This document shows positions 31,062 through 36,587 of a DNA stretch of 36,587 nucleotides, piece after piece. The position numbers and the translations under genes are program-made. Position 1 is the first letter of the stretch; the number at the start of each line of letters is the position of its first letter. The notes beneath the pieces are model-generated. The model was not told where the DNA came from, did not search any database, and saw nothing but the letters and a program-made list of their open reading frames with translations. Source of the DNA: a virus; IMG/VR virus record IMGVR_UViG_3300031565_000167, positions 1-36,587 of that record. One strand, written 5' to 3'.

Positions 31062-31599
31062 CCGTCAACGGCTCCTCGGGGGCCACGGTGTTGTCCAGAT
31101 CACCCCCGAAGAACGACAGGATATTTACATCCGGGTCCGGCTTGGGTGGGGGCTTCTCGCTGTGGGGCTCGCTGTCGAGCACCCACATGAGCGCTGCCAC
31201 GTCAGGGTACTGCTTGGCGATCCACCCAATGTCCACCTCAGTGCCATCGACACCGAGCATCGTGGCGAAGGCAGCTTTCAGATCCTCAGCCTCGGACCCG
31301 CACTCAAAGGTGGGGCAGTCGCGGCACTGCTTCCGGCCGCCAAGGGACTCGTCGCAGGTCACGGCGTTCCACTCGCCGCCGTCCTCTTGCCGAAACGCTC
31401 CGGGCTCCTTGGCGTCCTCGATCCCCCAAGTGCAGATGCGAAGGTGCGTGCGATTGGATCGAGAAGGGTCTCCGATCTCAATCACCGCATTGTGCGTGCA
31501 GTTGGCCGGTCGCCGTCGAAGACCTTCTTCGACGTACTTTTTCCGGTGTCTGTAGAGCACCTGCTTGAGTTTTCGCTTAATCTCTGCCGCCTTCTTCAT
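31054..31599 (-). CDS. Cys-cluster hypothetical protein in the replication cassette
   Basis: 181 aa from ATG 31599, ATGA overlap with the SbcC C-terminal gene. A basic N-terminal helix (KAAEIKRKLKQVLYRHRKKY) is followed by Cys/His residues: NCTHNAVIEIGD, RICTWG, VTCDESLGG and a CRDCPTFEC cluster. Seven ligand-type residues over 65 positions could bind zinc or an Fe-S cluster. A helical part (IAKQYPDVAALMWVL) and an acidic tail follow. No named family comes to mind. Its position suggests DNA binding in replication or recombination. Confidence 0.6.
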   Translation of the reverse strand: MKKAAEIKRKLKQVLYRHRKKYVEEGLRRRPANCTHNAVIEIGDPSRSNRTHLRICTWGIEDAKEPGAFRQEDGGEWNAVTCDESLGGRKQCRDCPTFECGSEAEDLKAAFATMLGVDGTEVDIGWIAKQYPDVAALMWVLDSEPHSEKPPPKPDPDVNILSFFGGDLDNTVAPEEPLTGD

Positions 31600-32234
31600 C
31601 GTCGCTCCTTGAATACCACCCCGTTCGGAGTGGCCTCGATGACGTATGCCTTCTGAGCCGCGTCGATCAACAAAGGGTCGTGCGTTACGGCAAGAATGTC
31701 CATGTCGAGCCGGGAGCACAACGTCGTCAAGAACCCGGCCATGCGCTCGATGTATCCCTTGGCGACCGCGCTGAGCGTTTCGTCCAGCAAGAGCACCGGC
31801 CGCATTTGCCGGCGCAAGATGACGATCACACGGAGCAGGACGGACTCGACCGTCGCCACCGCGCCTCCCATCGTCTCCAAGGGGTCGTCCTTGATCTCGT
31901 AGTCGTCGGAGGTGGCGTCAACCGTGAGCAGGTTGACGGCGACCTTCCCTCGTTCTTCTGTGACCTCGGCCTCAAGACTGAGGTTCTGGTCGAAGAAGAT
32001 TTCCTGCAAACCTTCGGTCTGGAGCTTCGTGACGGCTTCGATCCCTTCCTTGACCTCAGCGTCCGCCAACGATCGGATCAATCCAGCTACGAGGCGCAGG
32101 GTAGCGTCCTCGTTTTCAAGCCGGATGATCTCCGCGTCGTTGTCAGCGCGCTGTTTACCCAAGGCATCCCGAAAACCGATGGCTTGATCGGCTTGGGAGC
32201 GAAGGGTCTTGATCTCTGGAAAGGCGTCGAGCAT
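31596..32234 (-). CDS. SbcC/Rad50-like C-terminal ATPase half (separate gene)
   Basis: 212 aa, overlapping the clamp stop by one base. Residues 1-75 are a short coiled coil. Residues 120-190 hold the C-lobe of an SMC/Rad50-type ATPase: signature-like TMGGAVATVESVLLRVIV (121-138), Walker B PVLLLDE (146-152, Asp151/Glu152) and the H-loop ILAVTHDPLL (His185). There is no Walker A in this protein; it would come from the separate N-terminal half whose gene lies at the right end, 3.6 kb upstream. The two probably join through their lobes in one SbcCD/gp46-gp47-like DNA end-processing complex with the SbcD-like gene between them. Confidence 0.82.
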   Translation of the reverse strand: MLDAFPEIKTLRSQADQAIGFRDALGKQRADNDAEIIRLENEDATLRLVAGLIRSLADAEVKEGIEAVTKLQTEGLQEIFFDQNLSLEAEVTEERGKVAVNLLTVDATSDDYEIKDDPLETMGGAVATVESVLLRVIVILRRQMRPVLLLDETLSAVAKGYIERMAGFLTTLCSRLDMDILAVTHDPLLIDAAQKAYVIEATPNGVVFKERR

Positions 32235-33388
32235 CAGGAGGTGAGCCAGATAAGCAGGGTGAGATAGTCGTCCTCACCGCGGGCATCGCGGAAACGGATC
32301 CACCCACCCTTTTTCCCCTGCGGGTTAATCCCGAAGCGGAGCGCCTTCTGCTTGTACTGCGACAGAAAACGCTGAATGTATGGATACTTGATCGCAAAGC
32401 CCCCTTCAGGCAAGGGCGACTCTGGGTTCTCGCTGGAGCCGTGCTCAGGGCACTCCAACTGGAGGCAGTCAGTCGAGCCCGACGCGGAGGTCATGGACAG
32501 AAGCACCTCGTTGCCCTCGGGATCGAAATCGATCGTGAGGCGGTGGTCCTCCTTGGCAGCGGAAGAGGCAAGCTGCTTGACGGCGCAGTCGAGGTCGTGG
32601 GTCGAGACGACCCACCAGTGCATGTCATCCGAATCCTTGTCCACCTTGATCGGCGGGAAGGCGTTGTGAGGGCGACCCACCGACAGGATACCCTCATCGC
32701 TGCGCTTGAGGAACAGGTTGCGCTCCGTCTCCAGAATCTCCACGTCCTCATCCGCGATGAGTGCCAAGTATGAGAGCACCTGCTGGAGATCCTTGCCGTG
32801 GATGCGCAAGTTGGACTCGGCAAGCTCCTCGATGGTGATCAGAGTGAGCGAGGCCATGTCCGACGCTCGCAGGGATCCATTCTGCACCTCGGTCACGGAG
32901 AGGTGCGGCTTGGTCGTGTCCTTCTCGTGGGTAAAGAGCTTGGCGTGTGACAGCGCCGCGTGGAGCCGCGTCGCCTCCAGATCCACGATCTTCTTCGCCT
33001 GTGCCAGCGACTCGTCCCAAAAAGGGAACGAGGACGGATCGAGGGATCGGAATTTGACGCTGCCCTTGAGCGCCGTCGCCTTCACCGTCCCGTCGTCGTA
33101 CTCCAGCGTGAGCGCGGTGTCAGCCGCAGCGGCGAGCCACTGCTTGAGACGCCAGGACTCCACCGTGAAGGAACTGGCGGCCTCCTCTTCGACCGTAACC
33201 TTGCAGACGAGAGGGATGCTCGCGCCCAGGCGCCCGTTGTACGCCAGGATGCTAACCCGCTCGTCATCGTCCACAACCTCGTGGCGGAACAGGAAATGGG
33301 TGGACAGGTCGGAGCCGGTGCCAGACGTGCCAATTGACACGACCTGCAATGCGGCTTCCAAATCACTTTTAGCTACCTCGATTTTCAT
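32234..33388 (-). CDS. dnaN: Sliding clamp, DNA polymerase III beta (DnaN)-like
   Basis: 384 aa from ATG 33388 (MKIEVAKSDLEAALQVV) with AGGGA upstream; the longer open frame to 33550 lies within another gene. Length and architecture fit a DnaN-type clamp of three similar domains: domain 1 with RLGASIPLVCKV and SFTVESWRLKQWL, domain 2 with DLEATRLHAALSHAK and LRASDMASLTLI, domain 3 with TIDFDPEGNEVLLSMTS and FAIKYPYIQRFLSQY. It encircles DNA and tethers polymerase and repair enzymes; the DnaX-like gene downstream encodes its loader. Divergent from bacterial clamps; the identification is by overall pattern. Confidence 0.75.
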   Translation of the reverse strand: MKIEVAKSDLEAALQVVSIGTSGTGSDLSTHFLFRHEVVDDDERVSILAYNGRLGASIPLVCKVTVEEEAASSFTVESWRLKQWLAAAADTALTLEYDDGTVKATALKGSVKFRSLDPSSFPFWDESLAQAKKIVDLEATRLHAALSHAKLFTHEKDTTKPHLSVTEVQNGSLRASDMASLTLITIEELAESNLRIHGKDLQQVLSYLALIADEDVEILETERNLFLKRSDEGILSVGRPHNAFPPIKVDKDSDDMHWWVVSTHDLDCAVKQLASSAAKEDHRLTIDFDPEGNEVLLSMTSASGSTDCLQLECPEHGSSENPESPLPEGGFAIKYPYIQRFLSQYKQKALRFGINPQGKKGGWIRFRDARGEDDYLTLLIWLTS

Positions 33389-33659
33389 CTGTATCTTCCC
33401 TGTACGGGGCGAGGGCTTGCCTCGCGGTTTGAACGTCGGCCTCAAAGCTGTCCACCAGCTTGATGTACCTCTCGTTGAGTTTCTCCAACGCCACGCCGAT
33501 CTGTTCGGGTTCGATCCCCTTCTCGCGGCACTCCGACTCTGCTTGCGCAAGGCCAGACTCGGCCGCCTCCAGGCGTCCTTCGATCCGTTGAATGTCGGCG
33601 ATCAACTTGTTCCGATCTTTCACGGCCGTTTCTAGGCGGCTGTCCGTGTCAGTCATCAT
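33369..33659 (-). CDS. Small coiled-coil protein
   Basis: 96 aa from ATG 33659 (or the adjoining ATG 33656) with AAGGAG upstream. It is one continuous coiled coil: LETAVKDRNKLIADIQRIE, GRLEAAESGLAQAESECRE, LNERYIKLVDSFEADVQ. It overlaps the nuclease stop by 11 nt and the clamp start by 20 nt. Given that it stands between the two halves of a Rad50-like ATPase, it may be a detached coiled-coil arm segment of that complex, but nothing proves this. Confidence 0.65.
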   Translation of the reverse strand: MMTDTDSRLETAVKDRNKLIADIQRIEGRLEAAESGLAQAESECREKGIEPEQIGVALEKLNERYIKLVDSFEADVQTARQALAPYREDTDENRGS

Positions 33660-34626
33660 GGCTACTCTCCTTACTCGGTGGCTTCGTCTTTTGACCGTCC
33701 GTGTCCATGTCAAATTCCACGAACCCTTCGGAGTGCCCGACGATGGGCAGCAAGTCTTTGCGCTTCTCGGCGTTCGCGTTGTCGATCGTCAACCGCGCAG
33801 GGCAGACCCCCTTGTAAGGGCAGTATTGACACGCCTTGCTCGACGGTTTGGCGTCGAACAACCCCTTATTCATCCCTGTGCGCGCCTTGCGGGCTCGTGC
33901 GGCGATCTCTTGGAGGTCGCGCTCCGTGAAGGGGACCCAATCGAGGCCCTGCTCGTCCTTCCCGTCGTAGGGGAAGCGATACCAAACGAAGGCTGCTCGA
34001 TCCGGCAGCGTGTTGTTGTAGCTCAGATAGAACAGCAGAGCGTAGAAGCGAAGCTGATCGGGATCGACGTGCAGCATCTTCGTCTTGCTGTTCTTGCCGT
34101 CGAGGAGGGTGATCCCGGTGTCCTCGCGGCGAATGATCGTGTCGGCCCACCCCCCAAGCCGGTTGTGCTTGTCCAGGTGGCCGATAAGCTCGACCTCGGC
34201 CCGCGCGTAGGGGCCGAGGAGCTTGTGGTGCTTCATCGTCTTCAGGTAGCCAAGCACCCCGCTGACGACTGTATCTTCAATATCGGCCTGCCCCATGCCG
34301 GCGGCGCGCCAATCGATCCAATTCCGCTCGTCCTTCAGTTCCTTCTGCACGTAGAAGAGGGCGAGCTTCTTCATCTGGTGCTTCAGGCTGTCCGGTGAAC
34401 GCCAAAGCTCCTCGTTGTACAGATCCTCGATCACCGCCTGGATGGCGATGCCCATGACCGCGTGCTCGCGCGAACGCGGCTTGTCGAGAGGCTTCTTCCG
34501 GCCAGGACCCCCTCCAAGGTCTATCTTGCCCCAACCCCTGCTCCACAGGAATTTCAGGCCGCACTCCTCGTACTCCTTGAGGTGAGTCCACCAAAGGGTG
34601 TACGGCCGGTTGGGGTCCCACGCCAT
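33649..34626 (-). CDS. Cas4/RecB-like PD-(D/E)XK nuclease with probable Fe-S cluster
   Basis: 325 aa. The nuclease motifs are His55, Asp162 (GGWADTII), Asp176-x-Lys178 (LLDGKNS) and QxxxY (Gln191, Tyr195). Four cysteines placed as in Cas4 and AddB occur: Cys22 in YEECGLKF, then Cys266, Cys269 and Cys275 in CQYCPYKGVC, which usually hold a 4Fe-4S cluster. The family are single-strand exonucleases in recombination or DNA-end processing. It sits directly after the SbcD-like gene, so it likely cooperates with that complex in recombination-dependent replication. Confidence 0.85.
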   Translation of the reverse strand: MAWDPNRPYTLWWTHLKEYEECGLKFLWSRGWGKIDLGGGPGRKKPLDKPRSREHAVMGIAIQAVIEDLYNEELWRSPDSLKHQMKKLALFYVQKELKDERNWIDWRAAGMGQADIEDTVVSGVLGYLKTMKHHKLLGPYARAEVELIGHLDKHNRLGGWADTIIRREDTGITLLDGKNSKTKMLHVDPDQLRFYALLFYLSYNNTLPDRAAFVWYRFPYDGKDEQGLDWVPFTERDLQEIAARARKARTGMNKGLFDAKPSSKACQYCPYKGVCPARLTIDNANAEKRKDLLPIVGHSEGFVEFDMDTDGQKTKPPSKESSHDD

Positions 34627-34634
34627 GATGCACT

Positions 34635-35630
34635 CTACCGGCCGACAACGGCCCCTTCGGCGGTCTCGATAAATTCGATTGCCCGGTCTCGCACCTTCTC
34701 GGGCAGACCATCCATCGCCCCCACCTTCTCGGAGAGGGTCGCACCGTCCTCCGTCTCAGTGAGCGTCTTTCGGATCGAATCCACGAAGAAGTCCATCGTG
34801 GCAGCCCGCGACTCCTCACGGACACGGCCGTCCACATCAAACACCTCCTCGTGGGGCCGGATCTCGATATCGTGACGTTCGATCTCAATTCCCTCACGCG
34901 TGAACGTGATCACCGACACCGCAGGCTGGCGAGTTACGTCGTCCCAGGCGAGGGAACCGCGAGTCAGGCTGCCAAGGTTGATCACCCACTTGCCGGGTGC
35001 AATCTCGGTGATCCCTTGGTCCTTGTGCCAATGCCCGAAAAGCCACACATCCACGTCCGGCGCGAGTTCGATGAGGTCGGCGTATTTGATCACGTCCTCG
35101 TTGTCGAACATCGTGCCACCCTTCTCTGAAGCGAGGACGTGCGCCATGACGAGCAGGTAATCCTCACCCTGCTTCTTGCAGGCCCGGAAGCGGTCGAGGT
35201 CGTACTTGTTCCCATGGAAGGGGATGCCAAGCACACGGACGGACATGCCGTCGTCGTCCAAAAATCCGTGCTCGTGTTCGTCGTAGCAACGTTGGAACAC
35301 GCCCGTCGCAAACAGGACTCCGAGTGGCTGCTTGGGCAGGTTCCGAATGTCCTGTCGCGTACAGTCGTGGTTCCCAACGTTGCCGTAAACCGGGCATGGG
35401 TACTCCTTGTGAAGCTCCGCCACACCCCGCACAAGCGCGTGACTGTTTCGGATCGGAGCCTTCACGTCGAAGAAATCCGCGTTATCCAGCACGCCATCCG
35501 CGCCCACCCGGCGCGCGAGATCCCCGATCTGTCGGAGCTTCCCGAACACCGTCTCCGTCCAGTCATCCGTCCTAGAAACGGGAGTGTGGTCAGAGAGGTG
35601 AACGTCGGTGCGCGTGACGAAACGGATCAT
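34635..35630 (-). CDS. SbcD/Mre11-like metallophosphoesterase nuclease
   Basis: 331 aa from ATG 35630 in an ATGA overlap; the longer frame to 35771 is inside the previous gene. Calcineurin-type motifs: Asp9-x-His11 (RTDVHLSDH), Asp52 (NADFFD), GNHD (86-89), His164 (VMAHVL) and GHWH (199-202). This matches Mre11/SbcD/T4 gp47, the nuclease partner of Rad50/SbcC/gp46. It processes double-strand ends and hairpins with Mn ions. The C-terminal 100 residues are a capping and ATPase-binding region (TEDGATLSEKVGAMDGLPEK). It lies between both halves of the SbcC-like partner. Confidence 0.88.
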   Translation of the reverse strand: MIRFVTRTDVHLSDHTPVSRTDDWTETVFGKLRQIGDLARRVGADGVLDNADFFDVKAPIRNSHALVRGVAELHKEYPCPVYGNVGNHDCTRQDIRNLPKQPLGVLFATGVFQRCYDEHEHGFLDDDGMSVRVLGIPFHGNKYDLDRFRACKKQGEDYLLVMAHVLASEKGGTMFDNEDVIKYADLIELAPDVDVWLFGHWHKDQGITEIAPGKWVINLGSLTRGSLAWDDVTRQPAVSVITFTREGIEIERHDIEIRPHEEVFDVDGRVREESRAATMDFFVDSIRKTLTETEDGATLSEKVGAMDGLPEKVRDRAIEFIETAEGAVVGR

Positions 35631-35863
35631 CCGACCCCCGGCAAGCGCATCTGTTGGGAGCTTTCCCAGCCCTTGAGATAGGCGTCGCGGTATTCGATCC
35701 ACGGCTTGTAGGTCGTATTGCACGTCCCATCCTTGGCCGTGTGCGGGGGTCTGTACTTCCCCGCAAGACAATCAGCCTTGCCCTTGGCTTCATACGCGCG
35801 CCGTTGTTGGCCGTGCTCCAACCATGACATGAGATTCGCTTCAGCTTCATACGCCTGACACAT
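35627..35863 (-). CDS. Small protein with RMF/CrpP-like pattern
   Basis: 78 aa, ATG 35863 with AAGGGAG upstream, overlapping the preceding stop by 17 nt. Residues 22-70 show AYEAKGKADCLAGK, a Pro-rich middle, and YRDAYLKGWESSQQ. This follows the pattern of the small ribosome modulation factor fold (A/GYxxGxxAxxxGK...P...WLxGW). RMF makes ribosome dimers in stressed cells and CrpP-like relatives have been described on plasmids. It may alternatively be an unrelated phage protein; the match is short and uncertain. Confidence 0.45.
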   Translation of the reverse strand: MCQAYEAEANLMSWLEHGQQRRAYEAKGKADCLAGKYRPPHTAKDGTCNTTYKPWIEYRDAYLKGWESSQQMRLPGVG

Positions 35864-36587
35864 GCTGTTCTCCCTTCAGGTGTGTGCCGCAGGTGGGGCA
35901 CTCCTCGTAATCCCCCAAAATCGCATGGACGTTCTCCTCCGCCGTCTCAAGCTCCTTGCGCTTTTCGATCAGGAGGGTTTGAAGATCGGAAACCTTCTTG
36001 GCCTCATCCTCGATGCCCTTTTGAAGCCGGCCGAGCACCTTCCGCCCCTGCCTGAGCTTGTTGGCCTTCACGACCGCCTCGTCCTCTCCAGGGCGGTTGT
36101 TGGCTGCGATCTCTACGGCTGCCCCCCACTTGTCCACCATCTCCCTGCGGGCTGTGAGGCGCACCTCCAAGGCCGCTAGATCCTTCCGCTCTGTCTGGAT
36201 ATCTCGGATCTCGGTGAGGCGCTCCTTGTCAGGCACTTTCCCCTTGGCGTCTCCAAACCCCTCGTGTCGCTCGACCTCAGCCTTCGCCTTGTCGATCTTG
36301 ACCTGCGCACTCGACAGGATCTTGTGGAGCTTTACTACCTTGTCGCCCTTGGTCCTCGACTCCTCCAGACCATCGAGCAAAGCAACGGCCTCGTCCAGCC
36401 CCTCAAACCGAACGAAGCGCTCGTCCAGCTTCTCGCTGTCCTTGCGCCGCAACTTGAGATCGCTATTTACGCTGCGCCGCTCCGACTCGCAGGATTTGAG
36501 CGCGTGGTTGAGGACGCGGATACGCTCAACGTTCGCCACCGCGTCAGCGATGGCTGAGCCGGGGAGATCGAGAAGGAACAGGTCGCC
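35847..36587 (-). CDS. SbcC/Rad50-like N-terminal half with zinc hook (5' end outside window)
   Basis: The frame is open to the right edge; the first codons visible (GDLFLLDLPGSAIADAVANV) resemble the segment after the N-lobe in phage gp46/SMC-type ATPases. The rest is a coiled coil of about 210 residues (KSCESERRSVNSDLKLRRK, AKAEVERHEGFG, IEDEAKKVSDLQTLLIEKR) ending in a zinc-hook ECPTCGTH, 11 residues before the stop. Walker A should lie outside the window. A continuous SbcC would run on into a descending coil and C-lobe; here translation stops at the hook and the C-lobe is a distinct gene at 31596-32234. A GTG at 36539 can mimic a start but I judge the frame to come from outside. Confidence 0.8.
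   Translation of the reverse strand, partial: GDLFLLDLPGSAIADAVANVERIRVLNHALKSCESERRSVNSDLKLRRKDSEKLDERFVRFEGLDEAVALLDGLEESRTKGDKVVKLHKILSSAQVKIDKAKAEVERHEGFGDAKGKVPDKERLTEIRDIQTERKDLAALEVRLTARREMVDKWGAAVEIAANNRPGEDEAVVKANKLRQGRKVLGRLQKGIEDEAKKVSDLQTLLIEKRKELETAEENVHAILGDYEECPTCGTHLKGEQHVSGV

Follow-up and report, generated by a model that had tools for sequence, protein, structure and literature searches.

In many bacterial viruses and prophages, SbcC (Rad50), an ATPase that processes DNA ends, is encoded as separate proteins: a piece that ends in the zinc hook, a piece that supplies the rest of the ATPase head and, usually, a small helical protein. The division at the hook is real and conserved and reflects biology, not error, which means that the classical one-chain arm needs to be assembled from pieces. 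We studied it in a 36,587-base virus fragment from IMG/VR (the window), in which the cassette genes all lie on the minus strand in the order SbcC-N (incomplete at the right end of the window), an ORF of 78 aa, SbcD, a Cas4-like nuclease, the coiled-coil gene h, the sliding clamp and SbcC-C (Table 1). The first-pass annotation, made from the letters alone, had proposed an SbcC/Rad50-type ATPase split at the hook into two genes near SbcD, with the nuclease, coiled-coil and clamp genes also between them; all of these genes were found where it had placed them, and the two halves proved to be conserved families. Building on the conserved split, the hook and the gene companions, together with the predicted folds of both halves, our main reading is that the window encodes a naturally split SbcC that works with the phage SbcD (Mre11) and has the h protein as its third subunit, to which we give a probability of roughly 0.72.

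Table 1. Features of the split SbcC cassette in the window
Feature	Position	Strand	Remarks
SbcC-N half	35847..36587	-	cut by window right end; Walker A (outside window), Q-loop, four-helix arm, terminal zinc hook
CPTCG zinc-hook motif	35886..35900	-	12 residues before stop; both Cys conserved in all 36 homologues; matched by profile to 1l8d, 6zff
SbcD/Mre11-like metallophosphoesterase	34635..35630	-	PF00149, 2.8e-9
Cas4-like PD-(D/E)XK nuclease	33649..34626	-	PF12705, 6e-19
h, coiled-coil protein of 95 aa with two helices and a Gly-Ile-x-Pro turn; candidate third subunit of SbcC	33369..33656	-	phrog_18563 relatives
Sliding clamp (DNA polymerase processivity factor)	32234..33388	-	phrog_947, 2.7e-15
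SbcC-C half: N-terminal helix, degenerate signature, Walker B, H-loop	31596..32234	-	phrog_15167, 1.8e-18
ABC signature position M-G-G, serine replaced	31863..31871	-	
Walker B Asp-Glu (D151, E152)	31779..31784	-	invariant in 103 C-halves
H-loop His185	31680..31682	-	

The Walker A motif, which had been expected to the right of the window, is present in contig L002 (IMGVR_UViG_3300031566_004007). This contig shares 100% identity with the window across 13.7 kb and runs past the window's end. The complete SbcC-N of this contig is a protein of 372 aa (L002:7623-8741) with the start VIKVRVENFQSI and a Walker A of GTNNTGKS. Twelve residues, not the eleven first counted, follow the CPTCG hook, and the stop at 35847, for which a sequencing error had been considered, recurs elsewhere: in L004, a 141-kb contig with the same genes (62% identity to the window in the N-half and 83% in the C-half), the N-half stops 8 residues past its CPTC, and other N-halves end likewise, with tails of 2-17 residues after the second hook Cys. 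As an identical contig completes the N-half and a 62% relative stops at the same point, the break is neither a truncation nor a sequencing error. The short ORF between SbcC-N and SbcD (window 35627-35863, 78 aa) is replaced in L004 by a different ORF of 120 aa. A near-DNA search of the window in phages gave no match.

Profile searches of fetched loci recovered the cassette N-SbcD-Cas4-h-clamp-C, with all genes on the same strand, from many IMG/VR contigs and from an uncultured phage of 485 kb (LR745208.1), the order holding in most, not all, loci, with the C-halves (~211 aa) coming after the sliding clamp. Both N and C were present on 30 non-redundant contigs, counted after removal of near-identical loci with a k-mer filter; some IMG/VR contigs may be re-assemblies of a single virus. 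Both hook cysteines (C356, C359) are invariant in 36/36 aligned N-halves, and conservation in these and in 49 C-halves excludes chance. An artefact or decay, in the form of a frameshift, a truncation or a recent intron or homing insertion in an intact gene, might be suspected from an AP2-domain gene that separates N from h in Bacillus phage vB_BboS-125 (L092:7032-7604) and from a C-half that is itself broken into two ORFs by a frameshift, intron or error (L055:9935-10556). However, the same break point is shared by phages whose N-halves are only 23-62% identical to that of the window and by 54 Bacillota loci, and both halves are under evident constraint, so that we attach a negligible probability to decay; conservation of the split rules out a sequencing error or a pseudogene.

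An unsplit version, which the first-pass annotation had suggested looking for in related genomes, was found neither among about 90 viral loci, where no single ORF contains both halves, nor in 16 related phage records searched with PF13476 and PF13558, the window's own genome being represented only by its 36.6-kb fragment. PF13558 (the SbcC Walker-B domain) was absent from all 16 records and present in 14/14 control genomes. Two long, weak matches in the 16-record search were, by reading, an ABC-transporter ATPase and a helicase-like protein, not intact SbcC. The two halves are unlinked in Tunturi_5 (C at 19 kb, N at 128 kb), in Microbacterium phage Magritte (C at 0.4 kb, N at 94 kb) and in the contig G006 (N near 206 kb, C near 267 kb); that both are present even when unlinked counts for one split SbcC. 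An ABC-transporter ATPase-like frame was seen in a 402-kb IMG/VR contig (G003; L094:1093-3504) and may be an auxiliary gene or a binning error.

The split extends to cellular genomes. The C family occurred in 49 of 398 genomes drawn from class Bacilli, where the C-half ORFs reach at most 297 aa and no fused SbcC was found among the matches, and the N family in 67 of 398 genomes drawn from the phylum Bacillota. The Bacillota N also matches a model of LmuB, the SMC-like defence ATPase of Lamassu (5e-20), its gene neighbours being SbcD, h and C. The coiled-coil gene h (phrog_18563), which had been passed over as a bystander, separates N from C in 54/54 Bacillota loci, a set that includes L101-L104 and in which the L104 genome is present more than once (L105, L135). 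In all 54 the genes follow the order N, h, C on one strand, as a contiguous SbcD-N-h-C or N-h-C; N-h-C followed by SbcD was found in vB_BboS-125 and in Sutcliffiella, Paenibacillus and Brevibacillus genomes. Among other phage loci, h has C as its neighbour both in vB_BboS-125 (profile E 9e-9) and, at 6e-4, in Microcystis phage Mvi-JY20, and it adjoins N in Tunturi_5 and the 455-kb G008 (6e-4 each); no h was found beside the N or C of Magritte. An alignment of 84 h proteins shows the turn proline without exception. When the pieces of locus L148 are placed on phrog_77, a model of unsplit phage SbcC, they follow one another in order, N arm at 455-646, h at 710-779 and C at 770-953, the coiled-coil match of h being weak (2e-4).

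The most consistent companion of the split is thus h, and judging from sequence, SbcC here is probably a three-piece protein (N, h, C). Alternatively, N and C alone could rebuild SbcC, with h acting on its own in recombination or replication, for instance as an accessory of the clamp or of a nuclease, and kept nearby through co-regulation. The window lineage, in which h sits between Cas4 and the clamp and not beside N or C, is consistent with this, as is the outcome of Pfam and NCBIfam searches, in which the only matches to h were generic coiled coils; the coiled-coil matches of h are weak and promiscuous. We nevertheless regard a two-piece SbcC as unlikely, given the position of h in every Bacillota locus, its occurrence beside N or C in phages without an adjacent clamp or Cas4 gene, and a C-half helix whose length would cover only part of the N arm.

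Both halves have the motifs and predicted folds of SbcC/Rad50. The N-half contains the Walker A and Q-loop of the N-lobe, with GxNNxGK(S/T) and G27, G32, K33 and Q124 conserved in 36/36 N-halves, and gave profile matches to the Rad50 N-lobe 5f3w (1e-5) and the Rad50 zinc hooks 1l8d and 6zff (2-4e-5). The C-half contains the Walker B and H-loop of the C-lobe (Asp-Glu in 103/103 C-halves, His in 101/101 with a readable letter) and matches the Rad50 C-lobe fragment 3qkr_B (1.8e-7). Its AlphaFold2 model (pLDDT 92) shows a helix of 72 residues (8-79), of which ~50 lie outside the lobe that follows, and superposes on the P. furiosus Rad50 C fragment 1f2u_B with a VIA Z of 13.6 (144 residues, 2.7 A). 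As 1f2u_B is itself a separate chain, there is a structural precedent for a two-chain Rad50 head. The N-half model (pLDDT 80, pTM 0.39) matches SMC/Rad50 N-lobes in structure searches and has an arm of four helices of about 45-55 residues each (136-186, 190-234, 247-289 and 296-350) followed by the hook; the low pTM means that the model does not fix the direction of the arm helices, and Foldseek/VIA searches with the arm past residue ~157 were uninformative. Membership of the OLD/GajA/RecF-type ABC ATPases was considered and rejected: OLD/GajA proteins have a C-terminal Toprim domain, whereas the C-half consists only of a helix and a Rad50-like C-lobe, and RecF-type proteins have no coiled-coil arm, whereas the N-half has an arm and a hook.

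The signature serine is important for ATP-dependent engagement of Rad50. The C-half had been credited with a signature as well as Walker B and H-loop; the latter two stand, but the signature departs from LSGG: it reads xGG, with Met in place of the serine. Neither Ser nor Thr occupies this position in any of 103 C-halves (Arg in 56, Phe in 31, Tyr in 9, other residues in the rest), and a HMMER alignment of the C-half to 3qkr_B places the signature in the same register. In P. furiosus Rad50, the S793R substitution blocks ATP-dependent dimerisation (PMC7247530, citing Moncalian 2004). As the serine is never present, canonical ATP chemistry should not be assumed; the retained Walker A Lys, Walker B Asp-Glu and H-loop point to an ATPase that is probably active but engages differently. 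The missing serine, often replaced by Arg as in S793R, together with N and C genes that can lie more than 60 kb apart, would also suit halves that do not form one ATPase, with N dimers acting as a zinc-hooked tether and the C-half as a degenerate regulator. This we consider distinctly improbable, as the Walker A Lys, Walker B Asp-Glu and H-loop His are invariant and the halves have complementary motif sets and are found together. Moreover, a lone C-lobe in the ABC/SMC fold cannot bind ATP.

For a split SbcC with h as a subunit, the lengths of the pieces do not support the supposition of the first-pass annotation that two polypeptides would simply form one arm. The distance from Q-loop to hook clusters near 182, 225, 265 and 310 residues, i.e., in steps of ~43 residues, whereas the N-terminal part of the C-half (65-86 residues) and h (83-108 residues, all but one at most 98) are nearly constant. 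N-arm length did not correlate positively with either the C helix (Spearman -0.32, p 0.08, n 30) or h (Spearman 0.08, p 0.72, n 22), which makes a simple, length-matched two-chain arm unlikely. With only ~50 residues outside the lobe, the C helix would pair with the first N helix alone, and the rest of the N arm may fold back on itself or find a partner in either h or a second N-half. Isolated Rad50 hooks form strong dimers held by Zn(Cys2)2 and a short hairpin, the zinc site contributing -20.4, the hairpin -5.8 and the coil, as the smallest part, -2.1 kcal/mol (PMC5093744). As a minimal hook needs only a short hairpin around CxxC, it is plausible by analogy that a hook at a chain end could dimerise in principle, and two N-halves joined by zinc would be the expected state. 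The Magritte N-half (L010:1459-2538) is an exception without any CxxC; here the hook has been lost from a split SbcC and is dispensable in at least this member.

The assembly, the position of h, the dimerisation of the hook and the nuclease role, as we infer them, would combine as follows. Split SbcC and SbcD (Mre11) would process DNA ends during phage replication and recombination. SbcC-N would supply the zinc hook, the greater part of the arm and, in the head, Walker A and the Q-loop, and SbcC-C would supply Walker B, the H-loop and the arm base, its ~50-residue helix pairing with the first N-arm helix. The h protein may lie as a helical hairpin on the rest of the N arm or on its hook-proximal part, replacing the missing descending strand, and one zinc would join two N-halves through their terminal CxxC hooks. 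It is tempting to extend this to a widespread phage Rad50 lineage with a three-protein assembly (N, h, C), a chain-end hook, an arm that lengthens in ~43-residue modules whatever the length of its partners and an ATP cycle without the signature serine; we propose this wider generalisation tentatively, at a little short of even odds. If it is true, head engagement must be driven differently, as the Rad50 proteins studied so far depend on that serine.

Rad50/SMC proteins are treated as single chains in which an antiparallel arm links head and hook. The phage proteins resemble SbcC/Rad50 (E. coli SbcC, P. furiosus Rad50, T4 gp46) and SbcD/Mre11 in their Walker A/Q-loop N-lobe, CxxC hook, Walker B/H-loop C-lobe and adjacent SbcD gene. 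Unlike these, the genes are split at the hook, the N chain lacks a post-hook coil, the C coil has only ~50 residues outside the lobe, an h protein is added and the signature serine has become Arg, Phe or Tyr. From its sequence the phage protein would work like SbcC, yet it lacks two defining features, the single chain and the signature serine. The P. furiosus Rad50 structures 1f2t, 1f2u and 1ii8 likewise form one ATPase head from two chains, although these are laboratory fragments with the arm removed, whereas the phage split is natural and keeps the hook. Jumbo phages likewise divide cellular enzymes, though different ones, namely DNA polymerase III alpha and RNA polymerase subunits, and have near-universal SbcC/SbcD (PMC7824862); the passages of that survey consulted here make no mention of a split SbcC. 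We found no description of a split SbcC/Rad50 in the literature, which is weak evidence as subscription journals were little covered. Single genes of the split are already annotated as exonuclease or ATPase, and its N, h and C pieces stand as three separate PHROG entries, phrog_16465 (exonuclease), phrog_18563 (no function assigned) and phrog_15167 (ATPase); our analysis suggests a function for the second of these, a phage family listed as unknown. A natural Rad50 that is cut at the hook and has a divided arm is a test of whether the chain needs to continue beyond the hook at all, and the missing signature serine tests the generality of the Rad50 ATP switch.

A RecA/UvsX-like gene lies directly upstream of SbcC-N in three loci (L002:6406-7626, L004:3940-5157 and L096:2773-3984; identified by sequence reading in L004 and L096 and by position in L002), marking the SbcC cassette as a recombination cluster. 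Two SbcC-N proteins, of 748 aa (L019:3397-5640) and 676 aa (L021:2761-4788), are far longer than their relatives and keep the normal hook end, and one SbcD, of 711 aa (L034:3884-6016), is similarly oversized; all three are candidates for inteins or other in-frame inserts.
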